From Periweissella cryptocerci (lineage in GTDB: Bacteria > Bacillota > Bacilli > Lactobacillales > Lactobacillaceae): a stretch of DNA of 64,000 nucleotides. A program made the position numbers and the translations under genes. The notes below the pieces were generated by a model. The model did not search any database. It was given only the letters and a program-made list of their open reading frames with translations, and had not been told where the DNA came from. The DNA lies in the NCBI RefSeq assembly GCF_004358325.1, contig NZ_CP037940.1:1116001-1180000 (forward strand), in the 5' to 3' direction. Positions 2,149-59,440 of the stretch are shown here, piece after piece; position 1 is the stretch's first letter; every line of letters begins with the position of its first letter.

Positions 2149-2550
2149 GGCTCTATTTATTCTAGCGTAGGATTCTCATTCCCGTACTTTTGTTTAAGAA
2201 TACTCATGTACTATGGAATATATCTTAGGCACTAGTTTGTTTTCAATGCACCTCTGCTCATAACGACTGTTTTTTCTAGTTTGAGAATTATTACTAACTA
2301 ACGCAGTGGCTGGAAATTGCTTGGCGGGCGCAGCCTTTACACCGCGACTGGGGGAATATGTGTGAAACACATATTTCCGCTGAGGATAAGATGAGGACTC
2401 TTAGGAATTTATTCCTTAAAGTCCCAGCTTATCCGAACCTCACAAGACCGTATTTTGGCTTGTGAGGTTGCTTCCAGCGCAGTGCGCCAAGTAATTTCCA
2501 GACACGCAGTGGCCAAGTTTATTCAATACCACGCCAGACGGAATAGAGCC
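2149..2550 (+). repeat. Structured intergenic repeat, copy A (full length)
   Basis: About 402 bp with imperfect terminal inverted repeats (GGCTCTATT... and ...AATAGAGCC). The core from about 2297 to 2519 folds as an outer stem (CTGGAAATTGCTTGGCG with CGCCAAGTAATTTCCAG) enclosing three hairpins: GGAATATGTGT/ACACATATTTCC, a GGACTCTTAGGAA stem inside a GGATAAG/CTTATCC stem, and CCTCACAAG/CTTGTGAGG. The motif ACGCAGTGGC occurs on both sides of the core. The right end lies 8 bp from the U-tract of the terminator of the HD-domain gene. Confidence 0.85.
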
Positions 2551-2558
2551 ATGAATGT

Positions 2559-2589
2559 AAAAAAAGAAAGCTTAATCATAAGCTTTCTT
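2559..2589 (-). terminator. Intrinsic terminator of the HD-domain gene
   Basis: On the minus strand an 11-bp perfect stem (AAGAAAGCTTA with TAAGCTTTCTT, 4-nt loop) runs into a T-rich tract. It lies about 70 bp past the stop codon of the HD-domain gene. A second small hairpin, GGACTAAT/ATTAGTCC, overlaps that stop codon at 2645-2667. Confidence 0.75.
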
Positions 2590-2660
2590 ATATACTTACT
2601 ATTTATAATTTTAACATATAGAACAATCGTTCGGTATACTTAAAGGACTAATTTCGGTGA

Positions 2661-3290
2661 TTAGTCCAAAATTGTCTTTGTTAGCGCCATTAGCTTACCA
2701 CGTTCAGAAAATTCTTGATCCAACATTTCTGGTAGCACCGTGCTAATCACGTACTTCACACTTGGCATATCGTTAAATGATAACATCGTTTCCAAACTTT
2801 CTTTGTAGATTTCAACAAAGACCGGTTCTGGGTTGCCCTTTTGAATTTCGCCAAAAGCTTCGTACAATAAATCCAGTTTATCGGCAACCGACAAAATACG
2901 ACCTTCGAGGGAATCATCCTTTCCTTCTGTCAGGCGACGCATATAGCGTTCACGTAATTCAGACGGGATTTCTTTTTCAACGAAATTTTTAGTTAATGAG
3001 TCTTCCACATCAGACAACATCATGCGTAACGTGCTCGTGGCATACTTAACGGGTGTCTTAATATCACCGATAAAGCGTTCCGTATAATCATGGTTCAAGG
3101 CCTTCTCATACAGGCTTTGCCAATTAACGTCGCTGCCATTAATTTCTTCAATATCGCCAAGAAATTGGGCCGCTTGAGTAACTTTCCATGAGTGGGCTGC
3201 TACACTGTGCCCTTGGTATTTAAAATAACCCGGTGCGCGGACAACCATTTCTAACTCGCTCAAACCTTGTAAATATTCATGCATTCCCAT
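2661..3290 (-). CDS. HD-domain hydrolase, YfbR-like 5'-nucleotidase family
   Basis: A 209-aa cytosolic protein of the HD phosphohydrolase superfamily, most like YfbR-type deoxyribonucleoside-5'-monophosphatases (family assignment by motif reading). Metal-binding elements visible are the early His in SVAAHS, the HD pair in ALNHDYTER followed by GDIKTPVKY, and a later Asp in SVADKLD. The start was placed at ATG 3290 (MGMHEYLQGL) because GGAGGGG lies 9 nt upstream; a longer in-frame ATG at 3320 would put that ribosome site inside the coding region. The gene stands alone between repeat copies A and B. The substrate cannot be read from sequence. Confidence 0.8.
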   Translation of the reverse strand: MGMHEYLQGLSELEMVVRAPGYFKYQGHSVAAHSWKVTQAAQFLGDIEEINGSDVNWQSLYEKALNHDYTERFIGDIKTPVKYATSTLRMMLSDVEDSLTKNFVEKEIPSELRERYMRRLTEGKDDSLEGRILSVADKLDLLYEAFGEIQKGNPEPVFVEIYKESLETMLSFNDMPSVKYVISTVLPEMLDQEFSERGKLMALTKTILD

Positions 3291-3384
3291 GATGTAAGAC
3301 CCCTCCATATAATTTGACATAAGTTACATTCTGCAACAGTGCCAAATTGGTTTTATTTATCCTATCAAATTGTTGTGTGACTTA

Positions 3385-3400
3385 CAAGGAAGATTCCTTG
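3385..3400. promoter_or_regulatory. 16-bp palindrome upstream of the HD-domain gene
   Basis: CAAGGAAGATTCCTTG has perfect 7-bp arms around a 2-bp centre, about 95 bp before the HD-domain gene start. It could be an operator; no regulator is encoded nearby. Confidence 0.3.
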
Positions 3401-3460
3401 ATTAGTCGGTTTTACCACATATTCCCGAATATTCGAACTCATATCCAACCTAAAAATTCG

Positions 3461-3854
3461 GGTTCTATTCATTCTAGCGCGGAATTGTCGTTTCTGTACA
3501 TTGCAATCATCGAATTACTGAGGTTCTATTGTCAGCGTTGTTTCCATACTACTGATGTCTGTGGTTTAAACGATTCTCGCTAGTTTGAGCATTACTCCTA
3601 ACTAACGGAGTGGCAGTAAATTACTTGGCGGTCGCAGCCTTTACACCGCGACTGGGGGAATATGTGTGCAGCACATATTTCCGCTGAGGATGAGATGCGG
3701 ACTCTTAGGAATTTATTCCTTAGAAGCCCAGCTTATCCGAGTTGTTCAAGACCGCACTTCGGCTTGAACATGTACTTCCAGCGCGGTGCGCCAAGTAATT
3801 TACTGGCACGCAGTGGCCAAGTTTATTCAATCTCACGTCAGACGAAATAGAGCC
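3461..3854 (+). repeat. Structured intergenic repeat, copy B (full length)
   Basis: About 394 bp, same architecture as copy A, but several stems differ and still pair. The outer stem is GGCAGTAAATTACTTGGCG with CGCCAAGTAATTTACTGGC, and the third hairpin is GTTCAAG/CTTGAAC instead of CTCACAAG/CTTGTGAG. Ends are GGTTCTATTCATTCTAGCG and GACGAAATAGAGCC. The right end is 20 bp from the sortase-operon terminator. Confidence 0.85.
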
Positions 3855-3873
3855 GTTTTATGTTTCAACCACT

Positions 3874-3908
3874 AAAAAGTGGCACGGAAGATTCCCCCGT
3901 GCCACTTC
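3874..3908 (-). terminator. Intrinsic terminator of the pilus operon
   Basis: Minus-strand stem GTGGCACGG/CCGTGCCAC followed by TTTTT, just after the sortase stop codon. Confidence 0.85.
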
Positions 3909-3913
3909 TTAGT

Positions 3914-4789
3914 TTATTCAGTTACCGTAACTGCTGCCAGTTTCTTCTTACGAAATTTCCGGAAGCCAACGACCGCTAATGTTAAGACCAAAACTAGCGC
4001 GCCCACAGCAGCCATACTTTCTTGCATGATACTACTTTCCTTGGGGGCACCGTAACCAACAAAGTGACCACGAACCAACAAACGGTGCGTGTTCACCATG
4101 TATGGTGTACAAGTAATCAACGTTACATAACTTTGCTCTTTATCAACTTGTAAGTAATCAAGGTTATCGGGTTCCACAACTTTAATCTGGTCCACTTGAT
4201 AAACGAGTTGCTTACCATTGGTTTCGATGTAAAATTTGTTGCCGACCTTAACTTTAGGCAAGTCCGTGAAAAGGCGGGCATCTAACAAGCCGCGGTGGCC
4301 GGTTAATAATGCGTGCGTCCCTTTTTCTGGTGATGGTACTGATGAACCGGGGACAAGCCCAATCCCGTGTTCCAGTTGGACATCCGAACTACCGTTATAA
4401 ATCGGTGCATCCGTATTGATATCTGGAATGTGAATTGTTCCCATAATACGACCTAACTTACTTGCTAAATCTTTATTATCGGTCCCAAAATTTTGGAGTA
4501 AACCGCGATTTTCTTTTTCAACTTTTTCAGCTAACAACTTACTATTTTTAAACGGATCTTTGACATCATCCTTCTTACCCGCCCGTACCTTGGCATTTCG
4601 CGCTTTATCAGCAGCTTCAACAACTGCCTTTTGCTTCGCGTCAAGTGCCGCGGTCTGCTTACGGTAGCGATTAATAACTTGTTGCTGTTGCACAGATGCG
4701 TAAACGCGACCAATCAGTGGTGCACAGAAAACGGTGGCCCCAGCCATGAAGACTAAAATCAAGACAATCCGCATAATTTTCTTTTTCAT
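3914..4789 (-). CDS. srtC: Class C (pilin-polymerising) sortase
   Basis: This 291-aa membrane transpeptidase should link the pilins encoded just upstream into a covalent fibre. Seen in sequence: an N-terminal membrane segment (about 6-24), the class C lid motif DPF at 78-80, the catalytic His in LTGHRG (H165), the Cys in TLITCTP (C227) and the Arg in NTHRLLVRG (R236), then a C-terminal membrane helix (about 258-276) with a basic tail. The C-terminal helix and DPF lid distinguish class C from housekeeping class A. It is the last gene of a four-gene minus-strand operon and is followed by a strong terminator. No class A sortase is present in the window. Confidence 0.95.
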   Translation of the reverse strand: MKKKIMRIVLILVFMAGATVFCAPLIGRVYASVQQQQVINRYRKQTAALDAKQKAVVEAADKARNAKVRAGKKDDVKDPFKNSKLLAEKVEKENRGLLQNFGTDNKDLASKLGRIMGTIHIPDINTDAPIYNGSSDVQLEHGIGLVPGSSVPSPEKGTHALLTGHRGLLDARLFTDLPKVKVGNKFYIETNGKQLVYQVDQIKVVEPDNLDYLQVDKEQSYVTLITCTPYMVNTHRLLVRGHFVGYGAPKESSIMQESMAAVGALVLVLTLAVVGFRKFRKKKLAAVTVTE

Positions 4790-4828
4790 AAAACCGGTTC
4801 CTCCTTTTTCTTTTCCCCTCAGAACGGT

Positions 4829-4867
4829 TTAAGCTACGAAGCACCTGTAAGGTATTTCGTAGCTTAA
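4829..4867 (-). promoter_or_regulatory. Perfect 12-bp hairpin between minor pilin and sortase genes
   Basis: TTAAGCTACGAA and TTCGTAGCTTAA flank a 15-nt loop. There is no adjacent U-tract, so it is more likely an mRNA processing, stability or partial attenuation site that sets sortase level below pilin level than a full terminator. Confidence 0.5.
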
Positions 4868-14339: not shown

Positions 14340-14798
14340 CCGTGGACTGTTCAGAATTCATCCACATTGCCGGTGTTATTTCCATGACATTGCTGCCTGT
14401 GATTGGTAACTGTTTTTTCTAGTTTGAGCATTATTCGTAACTAACGGAGTGCCGGCAAATTGCTTGGCGGGCGTAGCCTTTACACCGCGACTGGGGGAAT
14501 ATGTGTGCAGCACATATTTCCGCTGAGGATAAGATGAGGACTCTAGGGAATTTATTCCCGTAGAGTCCCAGCTTGTCCGAACCTCCCAAGACAGACATCC
14601 AGCCTGCAAGGCTAATCTAATCGCGTTAGGATTAGATTCAGTATTTTGTGCAACAAAATGCTGGGATGTTTTGCGTTGCCGGTTCTCAGGCATAAGCACA
14701 GACTGGCTTGGCAATGCGCTTCCAGCGCGGTGCGCCAAGTAATTTACTGGTACGGGGTGGCCAATTTTATTCAATCCCACGTCAGACGAAATTGCACC
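14340..14798 (+). repeat. Structured intergenic repeat, copy C (extended variant)
   Basis: About 460 bp. The conserved core is present (CTAACGGAGTG, GGGCGTAGCCTTTACACCG, hairpin AATATGTGTGCAGCACATAT). The second hairpin is GGACTCTAGGGAA/TTCCCGTAGAGTCC, a paired change relative to copy A. The third hairpin is replaced by a longer branched arm (GACATCC...GGATGT) also found in copy H2. The left terminal repeat is not clear, so the left limit is approximate. The right end lies about 36 bp from the trxB terminator. Confidence 0.8.
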
Positions 14799-21269: not shown

Positions 21270-21473
21270 GTTCTATTTATTCTAGCTCGGGATTATCATT
21301 TCCGTACTTTTCAATCATCGAATTACTGAGATTCTATTGACGGTGTTTTTTCATGCCACTGCGGTCTGTGATTAGTAACTGTTTCCGCTAGCTGGAGAAT
21401 TATTACTAACTAACGCAATTTCCAGACACGGAGTGGCCAATTTTATTCAATCCCACGTCAGACGGAATAGAAC
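21270..21473 (+). repeat. Structured intergenic repeat, copy D (internal deletion)
   Basis: About 204 bp. It keeps the left end (GTTCTATTTATTCTAGC), the left half up to ACTAACTAACGCA and the right end (GGAGTGGCC to GGAATAGAAC), but lacks the hairpin core. The junction joins the left ACGCA to ATTTCCAG of the right outer-stem arm. The right end is about 17 bp from the galU terminator. Confidence 0.8.
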
Positions 21474-26310: not shown

Positions 26311-26538
26311 GTAGTTGCCACTACGTGCCACGGAAGCTACTTGGTGCACCATGTTGGGAGCCAAGCTTTCCAAGCCTGTAGTCTTGGAAAGTCTGCGTGA
26401 ACTGGGAGAGTAATCGCTAAAGCGCTAACTCTCCTCATTTCTCTTGAGCGAAGTGATGAATCACTTCCCAACACGGTGTAAAGGCTGCGCCCACCAAGTA
26501 GCTTCCTTAGGCACTCCGTTAGTTTGTACATTTTCAAC
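26311..26538 (-). repeat. Structured intergenic repeat, copy E (divergent subfamily)
   Basis: Read on the minus strand it keeps CTAACGGAGTG, GGGCGCAGCCTTTACACCG and CACGTAGTGGC but has new stem sequences that still pair. These are the outer stem AAGGAAGCTACTTGGTG/CACCAAGTAGCTTCC, hairpin 1 GAAGTGA/TCACTTC, hairpin 2 GAGAGT/ACTCTC and hairpin 3 CTTTCCAAG/CTTGGAAAG. The AT-rich outer arms of full copies are absent. It lies upstream of pspC, back to back with copy F. Confidence 0.75.
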
Positions 26539-26619
26539 AATAAAGACTGCGCAAAGCCAAAAATTCTACTCCATTGTTAAACTATTCAAATCAGCGTAGT
26601 GGTCGATAACGTCAATCAA

Positions 26620-27010
26620 GCTATTTATTCTAACGTGGGGTTGTCGTTTCTGCACTTTTCAGGTATCGAATTACTGGGAATCAATTGTCAGTGTTGTTTT
26701 TTTCATGCCATTGAGGCCTAGGGTGGTAAATGTTTTTTCTAGTTTGAGCATTATTCCTAACTAACGCAGTGGCTGGAAATTGCTTGGCGGGCGCAGCCTT
26801 TACACCGCGACTGGGGGAATATGTGTGAAACGCATATTTCCGCTGAGGATGAGATGAGGAGTTTTGGGGATTTATCCCCTAGACTCCCAGCTTATCCGAA
26901 CCTCACAAGACCGCATTTTGGCTTGTGAGGTTGCTTCCAGCACGGTGCGTCAAGCAATTTCTAGACACGGAGTGGCCAATTTTATTCAATCCTAAGTCAG
27001 ACTGAATAAA
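26620..27010 (+). repeat. Structured intergenic repeat, copy F (full length)
   Basis: About 390 bp and close to copy A in the core, with hairpin 3 CCTCACAAG/CTTGTGAGG. Hairpin 2 is changed to GTTTTGGGGA/TCCCCTAGAC, which pairs. The right end lies 11 bp from the phoU terminator U-tract. Confidence 0.85.
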
Positions 27011-27020
27011 ATCATATAAA

Positions 27021-32507: not shown

Positions 32508-32825
32508 GGCTTTATTTCTTCTGACGTGGGATTGAGTAAAATTGGCCACTGCGTGCCAGTAAATTACTTGGCGCACCACGCTGGAAGCACATGTTCAAGC
32601 CAAAGTACGGTCTTGAACAACTCGGATAAGCTGGGAATCTACGGGAATAAATTCCCTAGATTCCTCATCTTATCCTCAGCGGCGACATGTGTTCCACACA
32701 TATCACCCCAGTCGCGGTGTAAAGGCTGCGCCCGCCAAGTAATTTACCGCCACTTCGTTAGTTAGGAATAATGCTCAAACTAGCAAAAAATAGGTACCGA
32801 CCATAGACCACAATGGCATGGGAAA
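32508..32825 (-). repeat. Structured intergenic repeat, copy G (reverse orientation)
   Basis: Inverted copy whose right-end terminal repeat (GGCTTTATTTCTTCTGACG on the plus strand) faces pstS. Stems carry paired changes: hairpin 1 TGATATGTGT/ACACATGTCG, hairpin 2 ATCTAGGGAA/TTCCCGTAGAT, hairpin 3 GTTCAAG/CTTGAAC. The distal limit is approximate. It lies between the PHO box of pstS and the terminator of the first adhesin gene. Confidence 0.8.
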
Positions 32826-33007: not shown

Positions 33008-35275
33008 TTACAATTTACGCTTCTTACTGAACGCATACAAACCAATGACACCAGCGAGCGCAATTGCACCGATGACTGGTAAGACTCGGTTAACAACGTA
33101 CCCTGATTGTGGTAACACCCTGTCAGAGTTACGCCGAACGCTACTAGTAGGTGTATTGAAACCAGAATCAGTACTCAACGGCATGTAACGCGTACTTGAT
33201 GAACGCGATGTGTCCCTGTTGGTGTTAGTGCTACCAATTCCACTAGTACCTGTGCTATTACCACCAGTTACTGGTAATCCAGTTGGATTATTGGCGGTAT
33301 TAGAACTTGAGCTCTTAGCAGTGCTGTCATCATTCTTCTTGTCTGTGCTACTTGATGCCGCTGACGAACTCGTGCTGGCAGTTGATGATGATTGACTGCT
33401 TGAGTTTCCTGCAGAATTATTGTTACTGTTATTTGTATTACTACTGCTGTTGGAACTATTATTTGAGCTACTACTTGAGCTGCTACTATCGTTATTCTTT
33501 ACAGCCGTCTTAGCGTAGACAAACTTATAACTCCGCCCGGCATTGGCACCGAGGGTCAATTGTTTGCCAAATGAATCCGGTACGGCTTGCCACGTATAAT
33601 CACCTACTACACGCGAAAGGCCACTAATACTAAGTTCTTTAAAATCATAGCCATTAATCGCAAGCTCTTTATCGTCTAAATCCAAGATATCATTCATAAA
33701 GCCAGTCACCTTTTCAGGAGTAACAAGGTTCTGGTCATTAATGTCGACACGATAAATTGTAAATTCTGAAGTAGCTGCCTGATATTGATAAACAATCTCG
33801 TTCATCCCAATACTAATCGTCCCATTCTCAGTACCACTGTACAACGTCGGCTTGCCGTAACCAGCAATTGTTGGAATCGTTGGAAGATCATATTTAGTAC
33901 CAACTTTTCCACTGAGCGTAAATGATGTGATTGGCTTCCGATCCGCACCCGTTGAAATAACTTGACCATCTTGGTCGATATATTTATAAGTGACTGTCCC
34001 ACCAAGTTGCCATTTATCATGACCGACGAGTGGATATGAATTATTTAAATCATTAATATTAGCTAAGAATTTTTGTGCTGCTGATACATCACTATCGCCA
34101 TTTAATGGAATAACAATCCCACCCGGATGAGGATTATAAAATGTATCATTTTCAATAGTTAAAGCTGTATTTAAGTTTCCAATAATTAGTTGGCTCAACG
34201 TACCATACTGATGCTCATTATAATAATCGTAAATTGGCGAATACACGCTCTCATTGATTTGAATTAAATTTGGTAAATTAGTTAGTGTTAATGTCTGTAG
34301 GGTGGTCTGCCCAAAAACGTTGTCCTCAATCGTTTCCAGCTTTGCCAAATTATTAATTGTAACAGTAGTTAAATTTTTGCAATTATAGAACAATTCTGAT
34401 GGAAGTGATTCTATTTTAGCAAGTCCATCGAAAGTGACTGTTGTTATACCACTATCGCCATCGAACATGTCACGGGGCAATGATCTTAAATTATCAAGAT
34501 TCGTAAAATTAACTGTCTTTAAGCTTTCACAGCTGTTAAATATGGCATCCCCGATTCTGGTAAGCTTTGGTAAATTGGCCAGATTAACACTGCCCAAATT
34601 GTCTTCCTCTTCATAATATCCGGTCATAAATGAACCCGCAAACGCTCCGTCACCAATACTTGTTAACGCTGGTAAGTTCGTCAAATTAACGGTGCGCAAG
34701 GCTCCACAATTCGCAAAAGCATTATTTCCAATGGTTTTTAAATTATCCAAATTTGATAATTCGATTGCTTCCAAGGTTTCAGAGCCGTCAAACGCACTTT
34801 CACTGATAGTTTGTAATGAAGTTAATGAATTAAGATCCACTGTTCTCACCGATTCGATACCGCTAAACGCATAAGATCCGATACCAATTATCGACGTTGC
34901 AAATTCTGCTGGAAACGTAACATGTCCATCCCAACTTTGCCAATCTCCTAAAGCTAGGTACTCGTTAAATGAATCGCTAACTCCGGTTATAACCCCATTT
35001 GTAACCTCAAAATCATCGGCAGTAAACTCATGTACCTCACCATCATCGGATATCGCCCGATCAGTTTTTTTAGCTTTATTTTTTATTTTTGAAGTCGGTA
35101 CTTTTGTTGCCAATTCAGTTTGGTCGGTAACTTCCTTATCAGCTAAAGCAATCGGAGTCACCCCCATTCCACCAAGCAAGGTAGTCGTGGCAATACCGGC
35201 ATACAAAAAATGTTTACCATTTAAGTGTTCTGTTATTTTATAAAAATTATGATGTGGCTCTTTCTCATGTTTCAT
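33008..35275 (-). CDS. BspA-like leucine-rich-repeat surface adhesin 1 (type A), LPQSG anchored
   Basis: A 755-aa wall protein. An unusual N-terminal export segment (HHNFYKITEHLNGKHFLYAG and a Gly/Thr-rich hydrophobic stretch) is followed by BspA-type leucine-rich repeats (roughly 85-370, for example LKTIGNNAFANC). A MucBP-like domain (VTYKYIDQDGQVI) and a second beta domain come next. A long Ser/Asn linker holds LPVTG (about 667), and the C-terminus is LPQSG (about 721), membrane helix, KKRKL. The start was placed at ATG 35275, 8 nt after AAGGAG; it aligns with the MxxxKExHHN start of the other three paralogues. It lies 57 bp downstream of adhesin 2, probably in one operon. Confidence 0.88.
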   Translation of the reverse strand: MKHEKEPHHNFYKITEHLNGKHFLYAGIATTTLLGGMGVTPIALADKEVTDQTELATKVPTSKIKNKAKKTDRAISDDGEVHEFTADDFEVTNGVITGVSDSFNEYLALGDWQSWDGHVTFPAEFATSIIGIGSYAFSGIESVRTVDLNSLTSLQTISESAFDGSETLEAIELSNLDNLKTIGNNAFANCGALRTVNLTNLPALTSIGDGAFAGSFMTGYYEEEDNLGSVNLANLPKLTRIGDAIFNSCESLKTVNFTNLDNLRSLPRDMFDGDSGITTVTFDGLAKIESLPSELFYNCKNLTTVTINNLAKLETIEDNVFGQTTLQTLTLTNLPNLIQINESVYSPIYDYYNEHQYGTLSQLIIGNLNTALTIENDTFYNPHPGGIVIPLNGDSDVSAAQKFLANINDLNNSYPLVGHDKWQLGGTVTYKYIDQDGQVISTGADRKPITSFTLSGKVGTKYDLPTIPTIAGYGKPTLYSGTENGTISIGMNEIVYQYQAATSEFTIYRVDINDQNLVTPEKVTGFMNDILDLDDKELAINGYDFKELSISGLSRVVGDYTWQAVPDSFGKQLTLGANAGRSYKFVYAKTAVKNNDSSSSSSSSNNSSNSSSNTNNSNNNSAGNSSSQSSSTASTSSSAASSSTDKKNDDSTAKSSSSNTANNPTGLPVTGGNSTGTSGIGSTNTNRDTSRSSSTRYMPLSTDSGFNTPTSSVRRNSDRVLPQSGYVVNRVLPVIGAIALAGVIGLYAFSKKRKL

Positions 35276-35332
35276 TAGCATTGCTCCTTAGCGGTTAATT
35301 TAGTAGATATTAATACTGAGCACAGTCGGTTA

Positions 35333-37432
35333 TTATTTAGTTTTTTTCTTATTGAACACATATAAACCAATTACCCCAGTAAGAGCAAGAACACCAAAGA
35401 TTGGTAAAATATGGTTAACAATAGCCCCAGATTGTGGCAATGCTTTACTAGCATTATTATTCGGAGCGTTACGCGGCGTATCCGTGCTCAGCGGAATAAA
35501 TTTCGAATTCGTGACTTGTGACTTGTTTATTTTCTTAGTACCGGTGCCACTAACTTCAGTACTGTTTCCCCCAGTGCTTGGGAGTGCATTCGGATTTTGC
35601 GTAGAGCTTGAACTTACAGGCGAATTATCATTTTTACCAGTCGTGGTACTTGATACCGTAGCTGAACTCGACGTAGCCGGTTTTTCACTACTTGAACTTG
35701 CACTACTACCAGTTGAACTATTATTATTCGTGTTAGTATTGTTGTTATTCGTAGTATCGTTATTTTTATCTGGTGTTAATGTTGCAGTCTTAGAATACAC
35801 AAACTTATAGTTACGACCGGCATTTGCTCCAAGTGTTAGTGATTTACTAAAAGAGTCACCCACTGATTGCCATCCATAGTCGCCAACTGCACGTGACAAA
35901 GTACTAATATTAAGTTCCTTAAAATCATAACCATTGATAGCTATTTTTTTGTCATCCAAATTCAATGTATCATTAGTAAAACCAGTAACCTTTTCAGGTA
36001 ACACCAAATTATTATCATTAGTATCAACACGGTAAATCATAAATGAAGCCATCTCTGCTTGATATTGATATACGATTTCGTTCATACCAGGACTAAAAAT
36101 ACCGTTCTCAACACCACTGACTAATGTTGGTTTGCCATACCCCGCAATTGTTGGCAGCATTGGTAAATCGTATTTTTCCCCAGCTATACCAACGATTGTC
36201 ACTGCTTTCACCGGCATATTATCCGTTCCCAATTTGATAACTTGTTCATTTTGGTCGATATACTTGTACGTTATTGCGCTACCCACGTGCCATTTTTCGT
36301 TCACAGAAACATATACGCTATCCCCGATATAATTATTAGCCGCAACAAATTTTTGCGCCGTCGTTAAATCAGTAATCCCATCAACTGGAATTACAAGTCC
36401 GCCTGGTTTAACTATGTGTAGTGCTTCAGTTTCCAGCGTTAATCCGGCATTTAAATTCCCAACAATAATACGATCTAAAGTCGGGCTACTTTCGTCCCAA
36501 TTAGAAAACGCATCAGAATCAATGTGAATTAAATTCGGTAAATTTGTCAAACTCAGCATTTGTAAGCTTCGCGCATCATTCAAAGCGTTGGTCTCAATAT
36601 TTTTTAACTTAGGTAAATCGTTAACCGTCACTGTGGCTAAATTTTCACATTCACTAAAAAGGTTATAGGTCAATGATTGTAGACTATCCAGCCCGCTAAT
36701 TGTGACCGCATTTAACTTTCCACAATATTCAAACACGCCTGTGTCTCCGTGGTAGGTCCCCTCATAATCAGCAGGATCATAATTATCATACGTTCCCGCA
36801 TCATAATAACTTGTTCCCAGTTTCGATAGTAATGGCAGACTAGCTAAATTAACCGTTTCTAAATTTTCACAATCATAAAATGCCCCCGCACCAATCGTGG
36901 TTAAATTAGCTAAATTGCTGATATCAATTGCTTCCAAGAAAACATTGTCAGCAAAAGCATACTCACCAATGGTTTCTAATGCAGTTAAGGCATTAAGATT
37001 AACTGACCTGAGTGGAATACCTTGAAATGCCTCATCGCCAATCCCTGTAATTGTCGTTGCAAATTCATCTGGAAAAGTTATCAAACCGTCCCACTTAGAA
37101 CCATCTTCATACATATAATTTAAAAAATTGTCAGTAAAACCAGTTATTACCCCATCGATAACAGCAAAATCATCTGCCGTAAATTCATAAGCCTCGCCAC
37201 CATATGACCAAGCACGACTGGCTTTTTTTGACTTACTTTTTATTTTCTTAGGTGCGACTTTATTCACTAATTCCATTTGATTAGTATCTGCCTTATCCGC
37301 TAATGCAACTGGTGTGGCACCAATTCCACCAATTAATGTCGTTGTGGCAAGCCCTGCGTACAGAAAATGCTTACCATTCAAATGTTCTGTTAATTTGTAT
37401 AGATTATGATGTGGCTCTTTTTTGTGTGTCAT
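35333..37432 (-). CDS. BspA-like leucine-rich-repeat surface adhesin 2 (type B), LPQSG anchored
   Basis: A 699-aa paralogue with the same order of parts: YK...LNGKHFLYAG export segment, BspA-type repeats (about 85-330), MucBP-like domain (ITYKYIDQNEQVIK), beta domain, Asn/Ser/Thr linker, LPSTG (about 617), then LPQSG (about 665), membrane helix and KKKTK. The linker and anchor are closer to adhesin 4 than to 1 or 3. Ribosome site GAGGAG is 8 nt before ATG. Its upstream DNA resembles that of adhesin 4, suggesting each heads a two-gene operon. Confidence 0.88.
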   Translation of the reverse strand: MTHKKEPHHNLYKLTEHLNGKHFLYAGLATTTLIGGIGATPVALADKADTNQMELVNKVAPKKIKSKSKKASRAWSYGGEAYEFTADDFAVIDGVITGFTDNFLNYMYEDGSKWDGLITFPDEFATTITGIGDEAFQGIPLRSVNLNALTALETIGEYAFADNVFLEAIDISNLANLTTIGAGAFYDCENLETVNLASLPLLSKLGTSYYDAGTYDNYDPADYEGTYHGDTGVFEYCGKLNAVTISGLDSLQSLTYNLFSECENLATVTVNDLPKLKNIETNALNDARSLQMLSLTNLPNLIHIDSDAFSNWDESSPTLDRIIVGNLNAGLTLETEALHIVKPGGLVIPVDGITDLTTAQKFVAANNYIGDSVYVSVNEKWHVGSAITYKYIDQNEQVIKLGTDNMPVKAVTIVGIAGEKYDLPMLPTIAGYGKPTLVSGVENGIFSPGMNEIVYQYQAEMASFMIYRVDTNDNNLVLPEKVTGFTNDTLNLDDKKIAINGYDFKELNISTLSRAVGDYGWQSVGDSFSKSLTLGANAGRNYKFVYSKTATLTPDKNNDTTNNNNTNTNNNSSTGSSASSSSEKPATSSSATVSSTTTGKNDNSPVSSSSTQNPNALPSTGGNSTEVSGTGTKKINKSQVTNSKFIPLSTDTPRNAPNNNASKALPQSGAIVNHILPIFGVLALTGVIGLYVFNKKKTK

Positions 37433-37547
37433 TCATTGCACTCCTCATATAATTAGTTTTAATACTATTAATTTTACTAAGAAAATATGAAACAATTTTG
37501 TACACCATATACTAAAAGATTGAAGCTAAATCCAGCCTCGTCCAAAC

Positions 37548-37574
37548 CGTCTAATTAGTTTTCGTAATTAGACG
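37548..37574. promoter_or_regulatory. Perfect 10-bp inverted repeat upstream of adhesin 2
   Basis: CGTCTAATTA and TAATTAGACG flank a 7-nt loop, about 115 bp before the start of adhesin 2. There is no T-tract, so an operator or leader hairpin is more likely than a terminator. Part of the same string (AATTAGAC) recurs upstream of adhesin 4. Confidence 0.4.
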
Positions 37575-37625
37575 AATCCAACTAATATCATCTTTAGATT
37601 CCACGGTAAAAATATTAGTGTACAC

Positions 37626-37664
37626 AAAAAGGGCAACTCGTTTTCATGCACAAGTTACCCTTTC
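37626..37664 (-). terminator. Intrinsic terminator of the adhesin 4-adhesin 3 operon
   Basis: Minus-strand stem AAGGGTAACTTG/CGAGTTGCCCTT then TTTTTG, 50 bp after the adhesin 3 stop. Confidence 0.85.
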
Positions 37665-37714
37665 TTAATTAGGTTGATAAATACTATACTAATGCGTAAT
37701 TATTTTTGGGATGC

Positions 37715-39889
37715 TTACAATTTACGTTTCTTACTGAAAGCATACAAACCAATGACACCAGCGAGCGCAATTGCACCGATAACTGGTAAAACTCGGTTAA
37801 CAACGTACCCTGATTGCGGTAAATTCTTGGTGTCGTTACCACGAATACTACTTGTAGGCGTATTAAAACCAGAATCAGTACTCAACGGAATATAGCGTGT
37901 ATTTGATGAACGCGATGTATCTGCATTGGTGTTACCAATTCCACTAGTACCCGTACTATTACCACCAGTTACTGGTAACCCCGTCGGATCATTTGTGGTA
38001 CTAGTACTTGAACTCTTGGCAGTGTTGTCATCATTTTTCTTATCCGTACTACTTGATGCCGCTGACGAACTCGTGCCAGCAGTTGATGATGATTGACTGC
38101 TTGAGTTTCCCGCAGAATTATTGTTACTGTTATTCGTATTGCTAGTACTACTGCTGTTGGAACTATTATTAGAGCTATTACTATCGTTATTCTTTACAGC
38201 TGTCTTAGCGTAGACAAACTTGTAACTCCGCCCAGCATTGGCACCGAGGGTCAATTGTTTGCCAAATGAATCTGGTACAGCTTGCCATGAAAAATCACCA
38301 ACAGCCCGTGAAAGTGACGTGCTATTAAGTTCTTGGAAATCATAACCAGCAATTGCAAGCTGCATATCATCTAAATCCAAAATATCATTAGTAAATCCGC
38401 TGATTTTTTCAGGTGGCACAATATTTTTATCATTCGTATCGACACGATAAATGGTAAATTCAGACGTCGCACCCTCATATTGATAAACAATCTCGTTCAT
38501 CCCAATGCCAATTGCACCGTTCTCAGTACCACTGACCAATGTAGGCTTACCATAGCCAGCAATCGTTGGTGTTGCTGGTAAATCGTACTTAGTACCAACT
38601 TTTCCGCTGACTGTAAATGCTTTCACAGGTGTTCGATCAGTCCCAAAAGTAATCACCTGACCATCTTGGTCGACATACTTGTAGGTAACCGTACCACCAA
38701 GTTCCCATTTTCGACTTCCAGTAAATTGATTATCATTATTTAACTCATTAATACTAGTAAGAAATTTTTGGGCTGTTAGCACATCACCATCACCATTCAG
38801 TGGAATAACAATTCCACCTGGATGAGGCATCTCAAACGCATTTTCCTCGACAGTTAACGCTGAATTTAAATTACCAACAATCAGTTGATTAAAAGCGCCA
38901 TATCCATCATCATCACGTTCGTTAGCATCATATACGTACCTGCCGATATAAATTAAATCAGGCATATTCGTTAACGTCAGCGTTTGTAGCGCTGTATTTC
39001 CTAAAAATGTGTCTTCAATACGTTGTACCTTGGGTAAGTTATTGAGTGTAACGTTTGTTAATTCCGGGTTATCACTAAGCAGATCTTCCGGTAATACTTT
39101 TAAGCTATCAAGACCGTCAAGGGTAACACTTGTCAGATGCTCACAACCACCCAGCGCGTAACTGCCAATACTTGTTAACTTTGGTAAATTGGTTAGAGTA
39201 ATTGTCCCTGAATAATCCACATTATCCATCCATCCCCAATTCATAGAATAAGCAAAAGCATAATCATCAATGGTTGTCAGGTTCGGCAAATTATTCAACG
39301 TAATTGAAGTGGCCCCTCCCAAGTCGCCAAATGCACTATTACCAATCTTTTTTAAATGTTGTAAATTAGAAAGATCAATTTTTTCTAAATAGTAGGCACC
39401 ACTAAAAGCGCCATCCCCAATAAATTCTAACGCGGTTAACGAATTAATATCAACCGCAGTTAGTGCCTCCATACTCAGTGCACTTGGACCAATCCCCTTG
39501 ATTGTAGTCGCAAATTCGGCTGGAAATGTAATTTCTCCATTCCAAGGAGAATATTCTGACCACGCCTCTACGGTCTCGAAAAACGAATCATCCATCCCTG
39601 TAATGACACCGTGTTCAACAACAAAATCTGCTGCCGTAAAATTATAGGCTTGACCAGTATCTGACCACGAGCTTCCGTATCTTTTGTTTTTCGTTTTCGT
39701 CTTGGTAGGAACTGCTGTAGTCACTAACTCGGTGGCATTAGCAGCCGGTTTATCAGCTAAGGCGATTGGAGTTGCCCCCATTCCACCGATTAACGTGGTC
39801 GTTGCAAGCCCAGCATAGAGAAAATGCTTACCATTCAGATGTTCGGTTATGCGATAAAAATTATGATGTAGTTCTTTATCATTTGTCAT
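37715..39889 (-). CDS. BspA-like leucine-rich-repeat surface adhesin 3 (type A), LPQSG anchored
   Basis: A 724-aa paralogue. Export segment as in the others, BspA-type repeats about 85-350, MucBP-like VTYKYVDQDGQVI, beta domain, Ser/Asn linker, LPVTG (about 638), RYIPLSTD, LPQSG (about 690), membrane helix, KKRKL. Its linker and the last 100 nt of coding sequence are nearly identical to adhesin 1, so the two are a recent duplicate pair or undergo gene conversion. It starts 58 bp after adhesin 4 with AAAGGAGG upstream and is followed by a terminator. Confidence 0.88.
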   Translation of the reverse strand: MTNDKELHHNFYRITEHLNGKHFLYAGLATTTLIGGMGATPIALADKPAANATELVTTAVPTKTKTKNKRYGSSWSDTGQAYNFTAADFVVEHGVITGMDDSFFETVEAWSEYSPWNGEITFPAEFATTIKGIGPSALSMEALTAVDINSLTALEFIGDGAFSGAYYLEKIDLSNLQHLKKIGNSAFGDLGGATSITLNNLPNLTTIDDYAFAYSMNWGWMDNVDYSGTITLTNLPKLTSIGSYALGGCEHLTSVTLDGLDSLKVLPEDLLSDNPELTNVTLNNLPKVQRIEDTFLGNTALQTLTLTNMPDLIYIGRYVYDANERDDDGYGAFNQLIVGNLNSALTVEENAFEMPHPGGIVIPLNGDGDVLTAQKFLTSINELNNDNQFTGSRKWELGGTVTYKYVDQDGQVITFGTDRTPVKAFTVSGKVGTKYDLPATPTIAGYGKPTLVSGTENGAIGIGMNEIVYQYEGATSEFTIYRVDTNDKNIVPPEKISGFTNDILDLDDMQLAIAGYDFQELNSTSLSRAVGDFSWQAVPDSFGKQLTLGANAGRSYKFVYAKTAVKNNDSNSSNNSSNSSSTSNTNNSNNNSAGNSSSQSSSTAGTSSSAASSSTDKKNDDNTAKSSSTSTTNDPTGLPVTGGNSTGTSGIGNTNADTSRSSNTRYIPLSTDSGFNTPTSSIRGNDTKNLPQSGYVVNRVLPVIGAIALAGVIGLYAFSKKRKL

Positions 39890-39947
39890 TAGCGGGATTC
39901 CTCCTTTATTTCCATTTTTTTCTAATTATGTCAGCGTACTTACTCAA

Positions 39948-42086
39948 TTAGTACTTACGTTTTTTCTTACTAATAGCATACAAACCAATGACACTAGCGA
40001 GGGCAATTGCGCCGATTGCTGGTAAGACCCGGTTAACGATAACTCCCGATTGTGGCAACGACTTACCGTGGTATTTACTACGGATACTAGTTGGCATATT
40101 GTGGGGAGTGTCAGTGCTAAGCGGAATGTACCTAGTGTTTGACGAACGTGACGTAGTTGTCCGATTATTTCCAATCCCACTAGTTCCAGTACTATTACCA
40201 CCCGTGCTTGGGAGCGCATTCGGATCTTGTGTAGAACTTGAAGTTGCTTTCGAATTATCATTTTTCCCACTAGTGCTACTTGATGTCGTTGATGAACTCG
40301 ATGCCGCTGGTTTTTCACTACTTGAACTTGCGCTACTACCAGTTGAACTATTATTGTTCGTAGTAGTATTGTTGTTATTGGTATTAGAATTATTTTGATC
40401 TGGGGTTGGTGCCGGCGTCGCGGTCTTAGCGTACACGAACTTATAGCTACGCCCAGCATTCGCACCAAGAGTCAGTGATTTACCAACTGAATCCGGTGCA
40501 GCTTGCCATGTATAGGCGCCAACTGCCCGTGAAAGCGTACTGATATTAAGTTCTTGGAAGTCATAACCGTTAATTGCAAGTTGTTTATCATCTAAATCTA
40601 ATGTATCATTTGCAAATCCAGTAACTGTTTCCGGTTCAACCAAGTTCTTATCGTTAGTATCAACGCGATAAATCATAATCGAAGCAGTTGCCGCTTGATA
40701 TTGATAAACAACTTCTTGTAAACCATAGCCAAAAGTTCCAGTTTCAGTACCACTGACTAATGCTGGATTTCCGTAACCCGCAATTGTTGGTAGTTTTGGT
40801 AAATCATATTTTGAGCCGACTTTCCCACTAATCGTAAATGCTTTAACCGGCGTATTATCAATACCTGCTGTAATAACCTGGCCGTCTTGGTCAATAAACT
40901 TGTAGCTAATCGCACTCCCAATATGCCATTTCTCATTGCCTAATAAGTTCCCACTATTGGCCCCCGTACCATTGATGGCCGGCATAAATTTTTGAGCACT
41001 CTGTAAATCAGTAACTCCATCAACTGGGATTACAATTCCACCCGGAGCTGGCAGTTCAAACGCCATCGCTTCAACAATTAACGCCGAGTTGACGTTACCA
41101 ATAATAATCTGGTTCAAATTCCCATAATCCCAATTAGGGTAGTATATATAAGAATCAATATGAACTAAATTCGGTAAATTTGTTAACGTCAATGTTTTTA
41201 AACCAGTCGTCCCAGTAATTGAATTTGTTTCAATATTTTTTAACTTAGCTAAATTGTTGAACGTAATCGTTTCAATATTAATACAGTCATAGAAAAGCTG
41301 GTTAGGAATCGCTCTTAATGCACTAAGCCCATCAAAAGTCACTGATTTTATATTTTCACAACTTTGGAAAACCCCAGGAATGCTCCAATTAAAAGAATTA
41401 TTGTAGTAGTCGCTATCATCGATAATAGAATCGTCATCATAATAGTCATCCCCATACATTCTCTGGCCGAGCATTTCCAGTACCGGTAAATTAGATAGAT
41501 TAACCGCCTCTAAACCCGTACAGTTGTAGAATGCTCCCGCATCAATAGTTACCAGATGTTCTAAATTAGAAATATCAACCGATTCTAAGGCATAACTATC
41601 AGCAAATGCATGCTCACCAATCGTTTCTAATGCAGTTAGTGCATTAAGATCAATTGTCCGCATTTGAGATCCTCTAAACGCATCATTACTAATCCCAGTA
41701 ATTGTTGTCGCAAATTCAGCAGGGAACGTTACCGCACCGTCCCAATGGCAATCGTCCGTGTATAAATAATCATCAAAAAATGATTGGCTAAATCCGGTAA
41801 TCACACCGTCTTCCACGTCAAAATCATCTGCGGTAAAGTCATAAGTATCGCCACCATCGGCCCAAGTCCGGCTGGCTTTTTTTGATTTGTTTTTATTTTT
41901 TTTAGGGGCAACTTTGTTAACCAATTCCGTTTGATTTGAATCGGCCTTATCCGCTAATGCGAGCGGTGTCGCACCCATCCCTCCAATTAAAGTCGTTGTA
42001 GCAAGACCGGCATAGAGAAAGTGTTTACCATTCAAGTGTTCTGTTAATTTATAAATATTATGATGTGATTCTTTTTCTTTTATCAT
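39948..42086 (-). CDS. BspA-like leucine-rich-repeat surface adhesin 4 (type B), LPQSG anchored
   Basis: A 712-aa paralogue, first in the island. Export segment, BspA-type repeats (about 85-340) that include an Asp/Tyr-rich insert near 205-230 (YYDDDSIIDDSDYY), MucBP-like ISYKFIDQDGQVI, beta domain, Asn/Thr/Ser linker, LPSTG (about 625), LPQSG (about 677), membrane helix, KKKRKY. Closest to adhesin 2 in the linker. AAGGAG precedes the start. BspA-type repeats mediate adhesion in other bacteria; the ligand here is unknown. Confidence 0.88.
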   Translation of the reverse strand: MIKEKESHHNIYKLTEHLNGKHFLYAGLATTTLIGGMGATPLALADKADSNQTELVNKVAPKKNKNKSKKASRTWADGGDTYDFTADDFDVEDGVITGFSQSFFDDYLYTDDCHWDGAVTFPAEFATTITGISNDAFRGSQMRTIDLNALTALETIGEHAFADSYALESVDISNLEHLVTIDAGAFYNCTGLEAVNLSNLPVLEMLGQRMYGDDYYDDDSIIDDSDYYNNSFNWSIPGVFQSCENIKSVTFDGLSALRAIPNQLFYDCINIETITFNNLAKLKNIETNSITGTTGLKTLTLTNLPNLVHIDSYIYYPNWDYGNLNQIIIGNVNSALIVEAMAFELPAPGGIVIPVDGVTDLQSAQKFMPAINGTGANSGNLLGNEKWHIGSAISYKFIDQDGQVITAGIDNTPVKAFTISGKVGSKYDLPKLPTIAGYGNPALVSGTETGTFGYGLQEVVYQYQAATASIMIYRVDTNDKNLVEPETVTGFANDTLDLDDKQLAINGYDFQELNISTLSRAVGAYTWQAAPDSVGKSLTLGANAGRSYKFVYAKTATPAPTPDQNNSNTNNNNTTTNNNSSTGSSASSSSEKPAASSSSTTSSSTSGKNDNSKATSSSTQDPNALPSTGGNSTGTSGIGNNRTTTSRSSNTRYIPLSTDTPHNMPTSIRSKYHGKSLPQSGVIVNRVLPAIGAIALASVIGLYAISKKKRKY

Positions 42087-45870: not shown

Positions 45871-46053
45871 TTCCACTACGAGGCTGGAACCAGTCTGGAC
45901 ACCGTGATGGAAGACAAGCATTTGAAGCTTGGTTCGCTAACGCGGTAACCATCTTCACAAATCCATAATCAGTAACGAAACCCGTTACTGATTATGCCAT
46001 CACGGTGCGAGCTAAAGTCCAGACTGTTTCCAGCCTCTTCGTTAGTTTGAGCA
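45871..46053 (-). repeat. Structured intergenic repeat, copy H1 (most divergent)
   Basis: Read on the minus strand it begins CTCAAACTAACGAAGAGGC and ends CTCGTAGTGG, positions equivalent to the core borders of the other copies. It has an outer stem GAGGCTGGAAACAGTCTGGAC-type (GTCCAGACTG/CAGTCTGGAC, CCAGCCTC/GAGGCTGG) and inner stems CACCGTGATGG/CCATCACGGTG and CATAATCAGTAAC/GTTACTGATTATG. Sequence is otherwise unlike copies A-J. Confidence 0.65.
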
Positions 46054-46119
46054 GGCAGTCTGACTAGTAATATTCCCGCAATCCTTGTCGCTGCAAGTTT
46101 AGCGGTAATCAATAATTCC

Positions 46120-46466
46120 ACGCTCACCTAGCGGAAGTGACACCACGTGTCGGGTTTGTCGCTGAGGGTAGAGCCGACCGGGCCTTATTTGTCCAGCGTA
46201 GCTACAAATGTGAGCAGTTTTTTGGCTTTAGCCATTAGACTGCCAGCTATCCCGAATTGCCCAAGACAGACATCCAAGCCTGCAAGGCTAATCTAATCGG
46301 GTTTTGATTAGATTCAGTTGTTTGTTGCAAACAAACTGCTGGAATGTTTTGCGTTGCCGTACCTCAGGCATAAGCAAGCGGCTTGGGCATGCGCTTCCAG
46401 TGTAGTGCGCCAAGTAATTTACTGGCACGTAGTGGGCAATATTATTCAATCTCACGTCAAACGAAA
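46120..46466 (+). repeat. Structured intergenic repeat, copy H2 (left part missing or replaced)
   Basis: Keeps CGCTGAGGGTAG/CTATCCC, the long third arm shared with copy C (AGGCTAATCTAATCG...GATTAGATTCAG), GCGCCAAGTAATTTACTGGCA and the right terminal repeat. The left half has no match to other copies, and H1 lies there in opposite orientation. The last bases (AAAAAGCGCC) are shared with the secA terminator. Confidence 0.7.
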
Positions 46467-56139: not shown

Positions 56140-56345
56140 TTTTTTATAGCGCGGGATTATCGTTTCTGTACTTTTCAATCATTCAATTACTGAGGTTCTA
56201 TTGTCAGTATTTTTTCATGCTAGTGTGACCTGTGGTTGGTACCTGTTTTTCACTAGTTTGAGCATTATGCCTAACTAACGTAGTGCCGGTAAATTACTGG
56301 CACGGAGTGGCCAAGTTTATTCAATCTTACTTCGTTCACTCCGCT
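56140..56345 (+). repeat. Structured intergenic repeat, copy I (minimal hairpin)
   Basis: About 206 bp. Keeps the left half to CTAACTAACGTAGTGCC and the right border CACGGAGTGGCCAAG, but the core is reduced to the stem GTGCCGGTAAATTACTGGCAC. All three inner hairpins are missing, as if excised between the arms of the outer stem. It ends 6 bp from the pepC stop codon. Confidence 0.8.
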
Positions 56346-57686: not shown

Positions 57687-57841
57687 TTTACTAATCCTCC
57701 AATATATTTCAAAAAATTTGACGCTACTAATCTTGCATGTACATAAAACCGAAACGAACACGATACTTTGTAACTCCTTTTAATCATACCCCTAATCAAA
57801 TTAAATGTTCACTTTTAATCACACTATTCAATTAGCACAAG

Positions 57842-57876
57842 AAAAAAGGCCTAACCACGACGCTTGTGATTAGACC
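57842..57876 (-). terminator. Intrinsic terminator of the NlpC/P60 gene
   Basis: Minus-strand stem AGGTCTAATCAC/GTGGTTAGGCCT followed by TTTTTT. Confidence 0.88.
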
Positions 57877-57906
57877 TAACAGATGATGTTATTTAATTTT
57901 GTTATA

Positions 57907-58659
57907 TTATGCGTTTGGTAACTTGTTTAAGTCAAGACGAATTGCAAATGATGGACGGTTGTAGTAAGTAGCCAATGAAGCAGTTCCTAAACCACGACCT
58001 GGACGGAATGCGTTAATCCAAGTGCTCTTACCAGTAGCTAAACCAACGTGGTAAGCAGTACCAGCGCCACCCTTAGACCAGATTAACAAATCACCGGCTT
58101 TAGCTGACTTAGCTGAAATACGCTTAGCACCACGGCTCATTGCTTGGTTAGCAGCGGTACGGCCAATGTTCTTACCAGTCGTCTTCTTGAAAACGTATTG
58201 TGTAAATCCTGAACAATCAAAACCACGAGGAGTAGTACCACCCCAAACATATGGAGTACCCTTAAACTTCTTAGCGTACTTAATTACCTTGGTTGCAGGT
58301 ACAGAACCCTTTTTAGAAAGTGTAAGGTTTGCTGATTTTACCCAACCCTTAGTTGAACCTGACTTAATGTAGTACATAGTCTTATTCTTGTTGCTAAGTG
58401 AAGCAGATGCCTTCTTAGTAACTTTTAAAGTCTTGTTTTTAACTGAGTTAGTTTTCTTACCAGTTTTAACTAATTTACCACCAGACACCTTGTAGATGTT
58501 ACCGTTGTGCTTAACAGTAGCTTGCTTACCTGAAACGGTTTGCTTGCGACTAGTTAAGTGATCGTTATAAGTTGCGGCGCTGGCTGAAGTAGAAGTTGTA
58601 GCAAAGATTGCTGCGACTGCCATTACTGCTAATAAAGTTGCGAATACTTTTTTCATCAT
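57907..58659 (-). CDS. Secreted NlpC/P60 peptidoglycan hydrolase
   Basis: A 250-aa wall hydrolase cutting peptide stems. Signal peptide (1-29, cut near ASAAT), a Lys-rich basic middle region (about 35-115) that may bind the wall, and a C-terminal NlpC/P60 domain (about 124-245) with catalytic Cys149 in FDCSGFT and His204 in YHVGLA. A ribosome site AAAGGAAA is 13 nt before the double ATG. A weak cre-like string (CTTAAACGATAACA, 58738-58751) lies in the leader. Confidence 0.92.
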   Translation of the reverse strand: MMKKVFATLLAVMAVAAIFATTSTSASAATYNDHLTSRKQTVSGKQATVKHNGNIYKVSGGKLVKTGKKTNSVKNKTLKVTKKASASLSNKNKTMYYIKSGSTKGWVKSANLTLSKKGSVPATKVIKYAKKFKGTPYVWGGTTPRGFDCSGFTQYVFKKTTGKNIGRTAANQAMSRGAKRISAKSAKAGDLLIWSKGGAGTAYHVGLATGKSTWINAFRPGRGLGTASLATYYNRPSFAIRLDLNKLPNA

Positions 58660-59054
58660 CTGTTTTATAATTTCCTTTTCTGTGTCCTGTGCTATTCGAT
58701 GTTTTAAATACTACCAGTTGAATATTGCAAAGAATTACTTAAACGATAACAGGAACATTACAGATAATGACAAAAATCACTATTTTGACTTATACATAAT
58801 TTAACAATCGGTGTACACATTAGTCCAATTAGTATCAAAAATTGAACACAATGCTTTAAAATGAACACAAAACTCACTAACGAAAGCTTCTTTCATTAAT
58901 AATATGTGGTATACGTGCTTTTTACTGCATAACTTCTTTTTGTAATCTTTGCAATGAATGACATGCGATTACAAAAGAACACACCATCTAGTCATAGTTA
59001 GTCAACCCAGGATGAGTGGTAAAACTTTAAGCAGCAGATACGAACAATACCACG
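58660..59054. other. Long AT-rich leader of the NlpC/P60 gene
   Basis: Nearly 400 bp with no gene. It must contain the promoter of the wall hydrolase; apart from the weak cre-like string at 58738-58751 no element could be assigned. The last bases (CAATACCACG) match the right end of a structured repeat. Confidence 0.4.
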
Positions 59055-59093
59055 AAAAAAACGGGGGTAAGAAATTTTTCTCTCACGCCCGTT
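59055..59093. terminator. Terminator-like hairpin, left copy of a duplicated pair
   Basis: ACGGG...CCCGT stem with A and T flanks, very similar to the SDR terminator 390 bp away. Both are preceded by CAATACCACG, so the unit is a direct duplication around repeat copy J. Confidence 0.7.
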
Positions 59094-59100
59094 TATTTAT

Positions 59101-59440
59101 TTCTATTTGTTCTAGCGTGGGATTATCACTTCTGTACTTTTGTTTAAAAATGCTCACGTACCACGGAATATATCTTATGCACTAGTTTGAGAATTATTAC
59201 TAACTAACGCAGTGGCTGGAAATTGCTTGGCAGGCGCAGCCTTTACACCGCGACTGGGGGGAATATGTGTGAAACACGTATTTCCGCTGAGGATAAGATG
59301 AGGACTCTTAGGAATTTATTCCTTAGAGTCCCAGCTTATCCGAGTTGTTCAAGACCGCATTTTGGCTTGAACATGTGCTTCCAGCGCGGTGCGTCAAGTA
59401 ATTTACCGGCACGCAGTGGTCAATTTTATTCAATACCACG
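59101..59440 (+). repeat. Structured intergenic repeat, copy J (full length)
   Basis: About 340 bp. Left half closest to copy A (ACGGAATATATCTTATGCACTAG-type, key string GGAATATATCTTA). Core with CAGTGGCTGGAAATTGCTTGG, hairpin 1 AATATGTGT/ACACGTATT, hairpin 2 GGACTCTTAGGAA/TTCCTTAGAGTCC and hairpin 3 GTTCAAG/CTTGAAC. The right end runs directly into the SDR terminator. Confidence 0.83.

Follow-up and report, generated by a model that had tools for sequence, protein, structure and literature searches.

Structured repeats of high copy number are usually filed as inert miniature inverted-repeat transposable elements (MITEs). The stretch of DNA analysed here (“the window”), which comprises positions 1,116,001-1,180,000 (64,000 bases) of the single-contig, 3,020,651-base genome of Periweissella cryptocerci, raises the question of what is to be made of a family of non-coding repeats whose stems differ in sequence from copy to copy and still pair. 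A preliminary description of the window had listed eleven copies, read their pattern as selection on a folded RNA or single-stranded DNA, and linked no protein to them. The sequence comparisons reported here indicate that the repeats are probably MITEs mobilized by the ISL3 family of insertion sequences (IS) and carrying a folded core that is common to several genera, the fold probably being used in the spread of the element or in the survival of its insertions.

A covarying fold on one strand

The core is about 220 nt long and consists of a long outer stem (P1) with a 13-nt bulge, followed by three arms (P2, P3 and P4). The outer stem, the three hairpins and their compensatory changes, as first proposed from the copies in the window, are confirmed by covariation in an alignment of 127 cores from the whole genome, namely the full cores that lack a long insert in P4. 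When the 23,220 column pairs of this alignment are ranked by a G-test with average product correction, structural pairs account for 6 among the first 10, 9 among the first 20 and 12 among the first 30; most of the other high-ranking pairs listed are adjacent in register to structural pairs in P2 and P4. Of 9365 paired cells, 8378 are Watson-Crick, 542 G-U, 117 A-C and 328 other, compared to 7739 Watson-Crick, 716 G-U and 293 A-C expected if the columns were independent. A set of 32 cores drawn from the A-type and from a longer subfamily, B, has 90.6% of its cells paired, as against 81.0% after shuffling, with double changes in 36 of 74 pairs.

The large excess of G-U over A-C cells identifies the plus strand of the element as the folding strand; statistically, the core folds on one strand. 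This asymmetry also bears on the idea that complementarity is kept without any selection, through template-switch correction of imperfect palindromes or recombination between copies. In its favour, the P4 arms occur as a small number of block alleles, and some arms are mosaic and mismatched; under strand-symmetric correction, however, 542 G-U against 117 A-C cells is unexpected, and both the constant loop on changing stems across genera and the difference between private and shared variants described below need selection. This explanation is accordingly given only a small chance of being correct.

The block GCGCAGCCTTTACACCG, which had been taken to be constant and single-stranded, is not wholly single-stranded: its GGC-GCA-GCC portion pairs as a mini-hairpin held in the bulge of P1, and its CACCG portion pairs in the outer stem. 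The middle pair of the mini-hairpin is GC in 109 and TA in 15 of the 127 cores, and CG is also found once subfamily B is added. No Rfam (15) family was matched in the window at the gathering score, and searches of two window stretches in evalue mode returned sub-threshold matches only; an Rfam family over the core, which the preliminary description had named as grounds for abandoning its view, was thus not found.

Copy number, ISL3 ends and target duplications

The family is far larger than eleven, although the loci listed for it do exist. A 16-base core pattern allowing up to 3 mismatches has 100 forward and 120 reverse matches in the whole genome, compared to 4 and 9 for the reversed control. 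Cores were then sought by profile in the stretches around these matches, which amount to 614 kb of the 3.02 Mb, and 144 copies were found at 150 bits or more and at least 178 under a wider rule (150 bits, or 40 bits spanning nearly the whole model); both counts are lower bounds because the examined stretches were chosen by the pattern. Elements of subfamily B are about 740 nt long, have the same ISL3 ends, and bear an inverted P4-like hairpin upstream of the main core. An insert of about 80-105 nt is present at one and the same point of the P4 loop in one copy in the window (14614-14695), at loci L011, L012, L017 and L028, and in the B consensus, and looks as if it had been swapped in as a module.

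The genome contains 22 matches to PF01610, fragments counted. Six aligned ISL3-family IS copies are of one type (“type 1”), with stop-free stretches of 489-504 aa in three of them, and the type-1 transposase scores 249.9 bits against the NCBIfam ISL3 cut-off of 180. The consensus of the element ends is identical to the two type-1 IS ends at 23 of 26 and 25 of 27 bases. All six type-1 copies are flanked by an exact 8-bp target duplication as judged by eye (for example TTGAATCC, CCTTTTAT and CTAAATTG). Among the 178 cores, ISL3-type ends are recognized on the 5' side of 113, on the 3' side of 147 and on both sides of 106, and a duplication of 7-9 bp with at most one mismatch flanks 53 of these 106 two-ended elements, compared to a mean of 3.6 and a maximum of 9 in 200 shuffles. 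The earlier statement that no protein is linked to the repeats does not hold, since both element ends match an ISL3-family IS in the same chromosome and target duplications are present. These same two features make the repeats IS-derived MITEs, an outcome that had been expected to rule out selection on the fold; the two descriptions in fact hold at once. A MITE of the ISL3 kind is by itself ordinary.

Searches of four congeners (1.8-2.0 Mb each) gave no copies of the core and no homologue of the type-1 transposase; more distant homologues (20-30% identity) are present in 16 of the remaining 55 relatives searched. The genome also harbours a second type of ISL3-family IS, whose ends differ and several of whose copies are broken (L151, L153, L156, L158, L159, L165).

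A further possibility is that the constant block acts as an antisense guide to the mRNA of the transposase. The best match of a 19-base piece of the core consensus to the IS (L154) is 17 of 19, with the constant block at the bulge lying inverted over the zinc-ribbon codons, a value reached by 1 of 200 mononucleotide shuffles. This match was noticed after the fact, however; subfamily B, which has the same ends, gives 14 of 19 with a shorter test piece, a score that shuffles produce most often, and the block is paired in the covarying mini-hairpin. Antisense control was put aside and is regarded as highly improbable.

The core in other genomes

A plain DNA search did not find the core in 59 other genomes. 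A covariance model, in a survey that scored five candidates per genome only, has matches in 22 of 397 Lactobacillaceae genomes (the present one included) and 6 of 40 genera. Inspected singly, the matches follow the same plan: their stems are rewritten while the apical loop of P4 hardly varies, and some of them are without an arm. The loop, AGACCGYMYUUYGGCU (pattern AGACCGYMYTTYGGCT), occurs in 54 of the 397 genomes and 7 of the 40 sampled genera, with 133 matches in this genome and 1,454 summed over the other 53 (up to 132 in one of those), so that the non-coding family has more than 1,500 loop matches in the sampled Lactobacillaceae genomes; the reversed control has 3 across all 397. Outside the Lactobacillaceae, in an order sample of 395 genomes, the loop was found in one genome, as a single match. 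Of 30 loci recruited by the pattern (L206-L235), 21 have a covariance match at E <=0.02 and 9 have none. A 22-base variant of the loop occurs in named records of Levilactobacillus yonginensis, L. tongjiangensis, Pediococcus argentinicus and Lactiplantibacillus mudanjiangensis.

In an alignment of 57 distinct matches from other genomes, two of which are short fragments with E near 1, paired cells amount to 90.2% compared to 50.8% after shuffling, and double changes are present in 73 of 74 pairs; these figures lean upward, since the structure guided the alignment (A2) and the loop served in part to choose its members. When the partners are slid by 1-3 columns, pairing falls to 34-46%. Selection on a folded single strand, as originally proposed, is thus supported both by the 127 cores of this genome, with G-U in excess of A-C, and by the 57 matches across genera. 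Twenty element loci from other genomes gave no Rfam match overlapping a core; the two matches at these loci, an L13 leader (L174) and a PreQ1 (L176), both lie outside the cores.

The surroundings of the core differ from genome to genome. Divergent back-to-back cores occur at 7 of 58 loci, one second core being detected only at E 0.065. In one genome, G374, 7 of 10 copies align over two cores, with about 400-530 nt between the outer core ends, and the aligned flanks show by eye further inverted ends unlike those of ISL3; in the doublets of this genome (L245-L254, L307-L316) the inverted ends are near GTGTAGCTATCATAT. In another, G383, the repeated units are approximately the core alone, at about 190 nt. 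ISL3 ends are not present, by eye, on the elements of these two genomes. Given the inverted P4-like hairpin of subfamily B, we infer that the divergent doublet is the older form and the A-type a shortened one.

Several candidate vehicles were rejected or not found. Among 10 matches to the G374 ends, inspected by eye, no inverted pair lay at IS spacing, so that a partner IS with these ends was not supported. An autonomous element between divergent cores was also rejected: the three long spacers listed, all in the present genome, appear by their open frames to carry other genes. Copy A of the window had no match in phages, and viral contigs contained no exact 18-base match to the P4 loop; plasmids gave no match for copy A, for the ISL3 IS, or for one element each of G374 and G383.

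Pairing in private and shared variants

If a fold is under selection, it matters at which stage of the life of the element the selection acts, and this can be approached by separating variants found in one copy (“private”) from those that have been multiplied. The count covers paired columns in which the consensus reaches 75% or more, P4 being left aside. Private variants keep the pair in 14 cases and break it in 29, while variants in 3-8 copies keep it in 88 and break it in 44 (private versus shared, p 1.4e-4). Where the partner was changed as well, the cell was excluded (12 private, 14 shared); the pair is restored in 10 of the former and all 14 of the latter. Depending on the substitution spectrum assumed, neutral estimates of the kept fraction lie between 0.14 and 0.34, so that the private fraction, 0.33, is at the top of the neutral range and the shared fraction, 0.67, well above it. 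Judging from these counts, the fold is kept in lineages that multiply and seems almost free to decay in resident copies, and it would be selected during propagation of the element.

Orientation and gene context

The position of the elements relative to genes and to replication was evaluated for 174 elements that have flanking genes. Gene calls were crude ones based on open frames, and the strand carrying most genes was taken as leading on each side of 1.6 Mb. The gene at the 3' side points towards the element in 153 of the 174; 45 elements lie between convergent genes and 4 between divergent genes, and relative to its neighbouring genes the folding strand is mostly the antisense one. At the 3' side 38 of 106 elements abut a terminator-like hairpin that points to them, and at the 5' side 16 do so, the two away directions giving 13 and 13, random stretches 14 of 400 and shuffled sequence 2 of 106. 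In the 5' module, on the minus strand, an outward promoter-like sequence near TTGACA-18-GATGAT, allowing up to 3 mismatches, was observed in 35 of 73 modules compared to about 20 when shuffled; this weak signal could drive the next gene.

The adjacency of the cores to gene 3' ends, with few of them between divergent genes, and the excess of abutting terminator-like hairpins over random stretches are what would be expected if the core were a cis-acting RNA serving the host (a terminator, an mRNA stabilizer or a riboregulator) that is kept locus by locus, with mobility only its means of spread. Terminators are expected beside gene ends in any case, however, and the folding strand is antisense to most neighbouring genes; private variants break pairs more often than they keep them, and the four congeners searched have no copies. 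A host-serving role of this kind is considered doubtful.

The elements are also biased with respect to replication. In 146 of 174 cases they run opposite to the leading strand, and the same holds for 36 of the 45 between convergent genes (p 6.6e-5), so that in this subset gene direction cannot explain the bias; only 2 of 6 between lagging-strand tandem genes do so, and gene direction may therefore also contribute. A weaker bias of the same kind is present in genome G346 (29 of 43, p 0.03), where the genome was split at the skew change near 1.47 Mb and skew was measured for 30 of the 43 elements. A replication-strand bias that persists between convergent genes, together with the divergent doublets and the bare units of G383, could indicate that the element moves as a folded single strand, in the manner of REPINs with the RAYT transposase or of IS200/IS605, the fold being the transposition substrate. 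Against this, the Y1 transposase domain (PF01797), present in 32 of 58 genomes, occurs in 16 of 26 that bear copies and in 16 of 32 that are free of them, so that it does not track the copies, and it was found neither in the present genome nor in the copy-rich G369, G215, G374 and G346; IS200/RAYT as a general mover is thus not supported. The ISL3 ends and target duplications in this genome point instead to a DDE transposase acting on double-stranded DNA, and the folding strand here would not be the lagging-strand template. Movement as a folded single strand is judged unlikely, though it deserves somewhat more weight than a host-serving RNA.

Weighing the interpretation

The reading preferred here, of ISL3-mobilized MITEs with a folded core, can be stated as a sequence of steps. 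In this genome an ISL3-family transposase would move the repeats in trans, as the matching ends and the target duplications suggest. The cargo would be not IS debris but the folded core of about 220 nt, a member of a high-copy non-coding family of several Lactobacillaceae genera; elsewhere this core occurs as single cores or divergent doublets, without ISL3 ends in the two genomes examined. The retention of pairing in multiplied variants, and much less in private ones, suggests that the fold would be used while the element spreads, or would decide the survival of new insertions, and would thereafter be allowed to decay. The P4 loop, which stays constant on a stem free to change, is most likely the site recognized by a protein or RNA partner, and the acting form of the folded strand may be RNA or single-stranded DNA.

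Several observations weigh against this reading. One or both recognizable ISL3 ends are missing from 72 of the 178 cores, and 53 of the 106 two-ended elements are without a clear duplication. Matches to a promoter on the folding strand are no better than those of shuffles, and the Y1 survey and the G374 end matches revealed no mover outside this genus. Substitution in unpaired columns of the 127 cores is strand-asymmetric (C>T 73 of 1493, G>A 44 of 2269), so that part of the G-U excess may be mutational, and upper P4 is unpaired in some copies (182 of 1396 cells other, 45 A-C); the upward lean of the cross-genome figures also belongs here. With private variants at the top of the neutral range, a weak constraint may still act on resident copies, and because shared variants are older, purging over time could mimic selection during spread.

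A broader interpretation, which is offered tentatively and with distinctly less confidence, is that the core represents a mobile folded module of a new class. Built as a multi-arm junction whose apical loop is constant, it would spread across the Lactobacillaceae without depending on a particular transposon, would be captured between different IS ends (ISL3 here, others in at least one further genus), and would determine its own propagation by its fold via a partner. A literature search, which took in PMC4180280, PMC12306157, PMC10969869 and PMC2267715, gave no description of the fold family. The retention of a complex fold across genera while stems and flanking ends change did not turn up in this search either, and the cores tested have no Rfam 15 match. 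The persistence of such a fold, together with the pairing signal in multiplied variants, raises the testable question of whether a nucleic-acid fold can itself drive the spread of a repeat, and via which partner.

Copies in the window

The core is carried, at the places originally listed, by copies A, B, C, F, G, H and J and by a weaker E, while D and I are core-less. Copy A (2149-2550, plus strand) is a complete A-type element with ISL3-type ends and a core at 2294-2512. The bulge of its outer stem lies at 2327-2339 (plus), the first nine bases forming the mini-hairpin (2327-2335) that covaries as GC/UA/CG in the family, and hairpin 3 (P4) lies at 2436-2469 (plus) with its apical-loop motif at 2445-2460; the flanking 8-mers agree at only 6 of 8 positions. 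Copy B (3461-3854, plus) is likewise a complete A-type element, with a core at 3598-3816 and no target duplication detected. For both copies the ends computed from the genome-wide family equal the limits given earlier. Copy C (14340-14798, plus) is of the A-type with the long insert in its hairpin 3 (P4) loop, which divides the core into pieces at 14438-14613 and 14696-14759; its 5' end follows the earlier limit, the fuzzy end match not having detected it.

Copy E (26318-26525, minus) has a diverged core of 86 bits and forms a divergent (-,+) pair with copy F (26619-27013, plus), an A-type element with a core at 26757-26975. Copy G (32508-32825, minus) is an A-type element with a core at 32546-32765, whose 3' ISL3 end was found and whose 5' end was not. 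Copies H1 and H2, previously listed as separate, occupy a real locus (45871-46466, plus, outer limits as in the preliminary description) that is best read as one element of the longer subfamily B, with a core match of 65 bits in two pieces at 46210-46435. Copy J (59101-59440, plus) is an A-type element with a core at 59200-59419 and no 3' ISL3 end detected. Copies D (21270-21473, plus; repeat families D9, D14, D15 and D16) and I (56140-56345, plus; D6, D14, D15 and D16) retain the 5' module and the 3' end only, the profile search for the core having given no match in either. The limits of D, I and J are also the earlier ones. Open frames of 134 aa and 117 aa overlap copies C and J respectively; the freely changing stems of the fold argue against a protein-coding role for the element.

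Elsewhere in the window, positions 33008-42086 encode four surface-type proteins in a row (757, 699, 724 and 712 aa). They have leucine-rich repeats of the BspA type together with MucBP domains, and an LPXTG anchor was matched in two; many other repeat families of the window fall inside these genes.

Comparison with known systems

The repeats described here resemble the REP/REPIN repeats associated with the RAYT transposase in their high copy number, intergenic position and folding, and in forming inverted doublets as well as single units. REP/REPIN units, however, are built on one short hairpin, whereas the present unit is about 160-220 nt long with several arms, and Y1 was not found in several copy-rich genomes including this one. 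BOX, RUP and QMITE-type repeats are described (PMC10969869) as mobile intergenic repeats whose transcripts would fold stably, a likeness the present family shares; on that description they are set apart by belonging to other host groups, while the present family has no Rfam match, covaries across genera and has a constant apical loop. The ornate RNAs GOLLD, ROOL and OLE (PMC12286853) are also large structured non-coding sequences, some of them in Lactobacillales; the family described here differs in having no Rfam match, in reaching, at most, more than 100 dispersed copies per genome, and in being carried by MITEs in the present genome. With the ISL3-family MITEs, non-autonomous derivatives of ISL3 elements, the repeats share termini that both match an ISL3 IS of the same genome, short AT-rich target duplications and an apparent lack of genes, but they differ from them in that their interior is a conserved multi-branch fold, common to genomes where the elements examined have other flanks.

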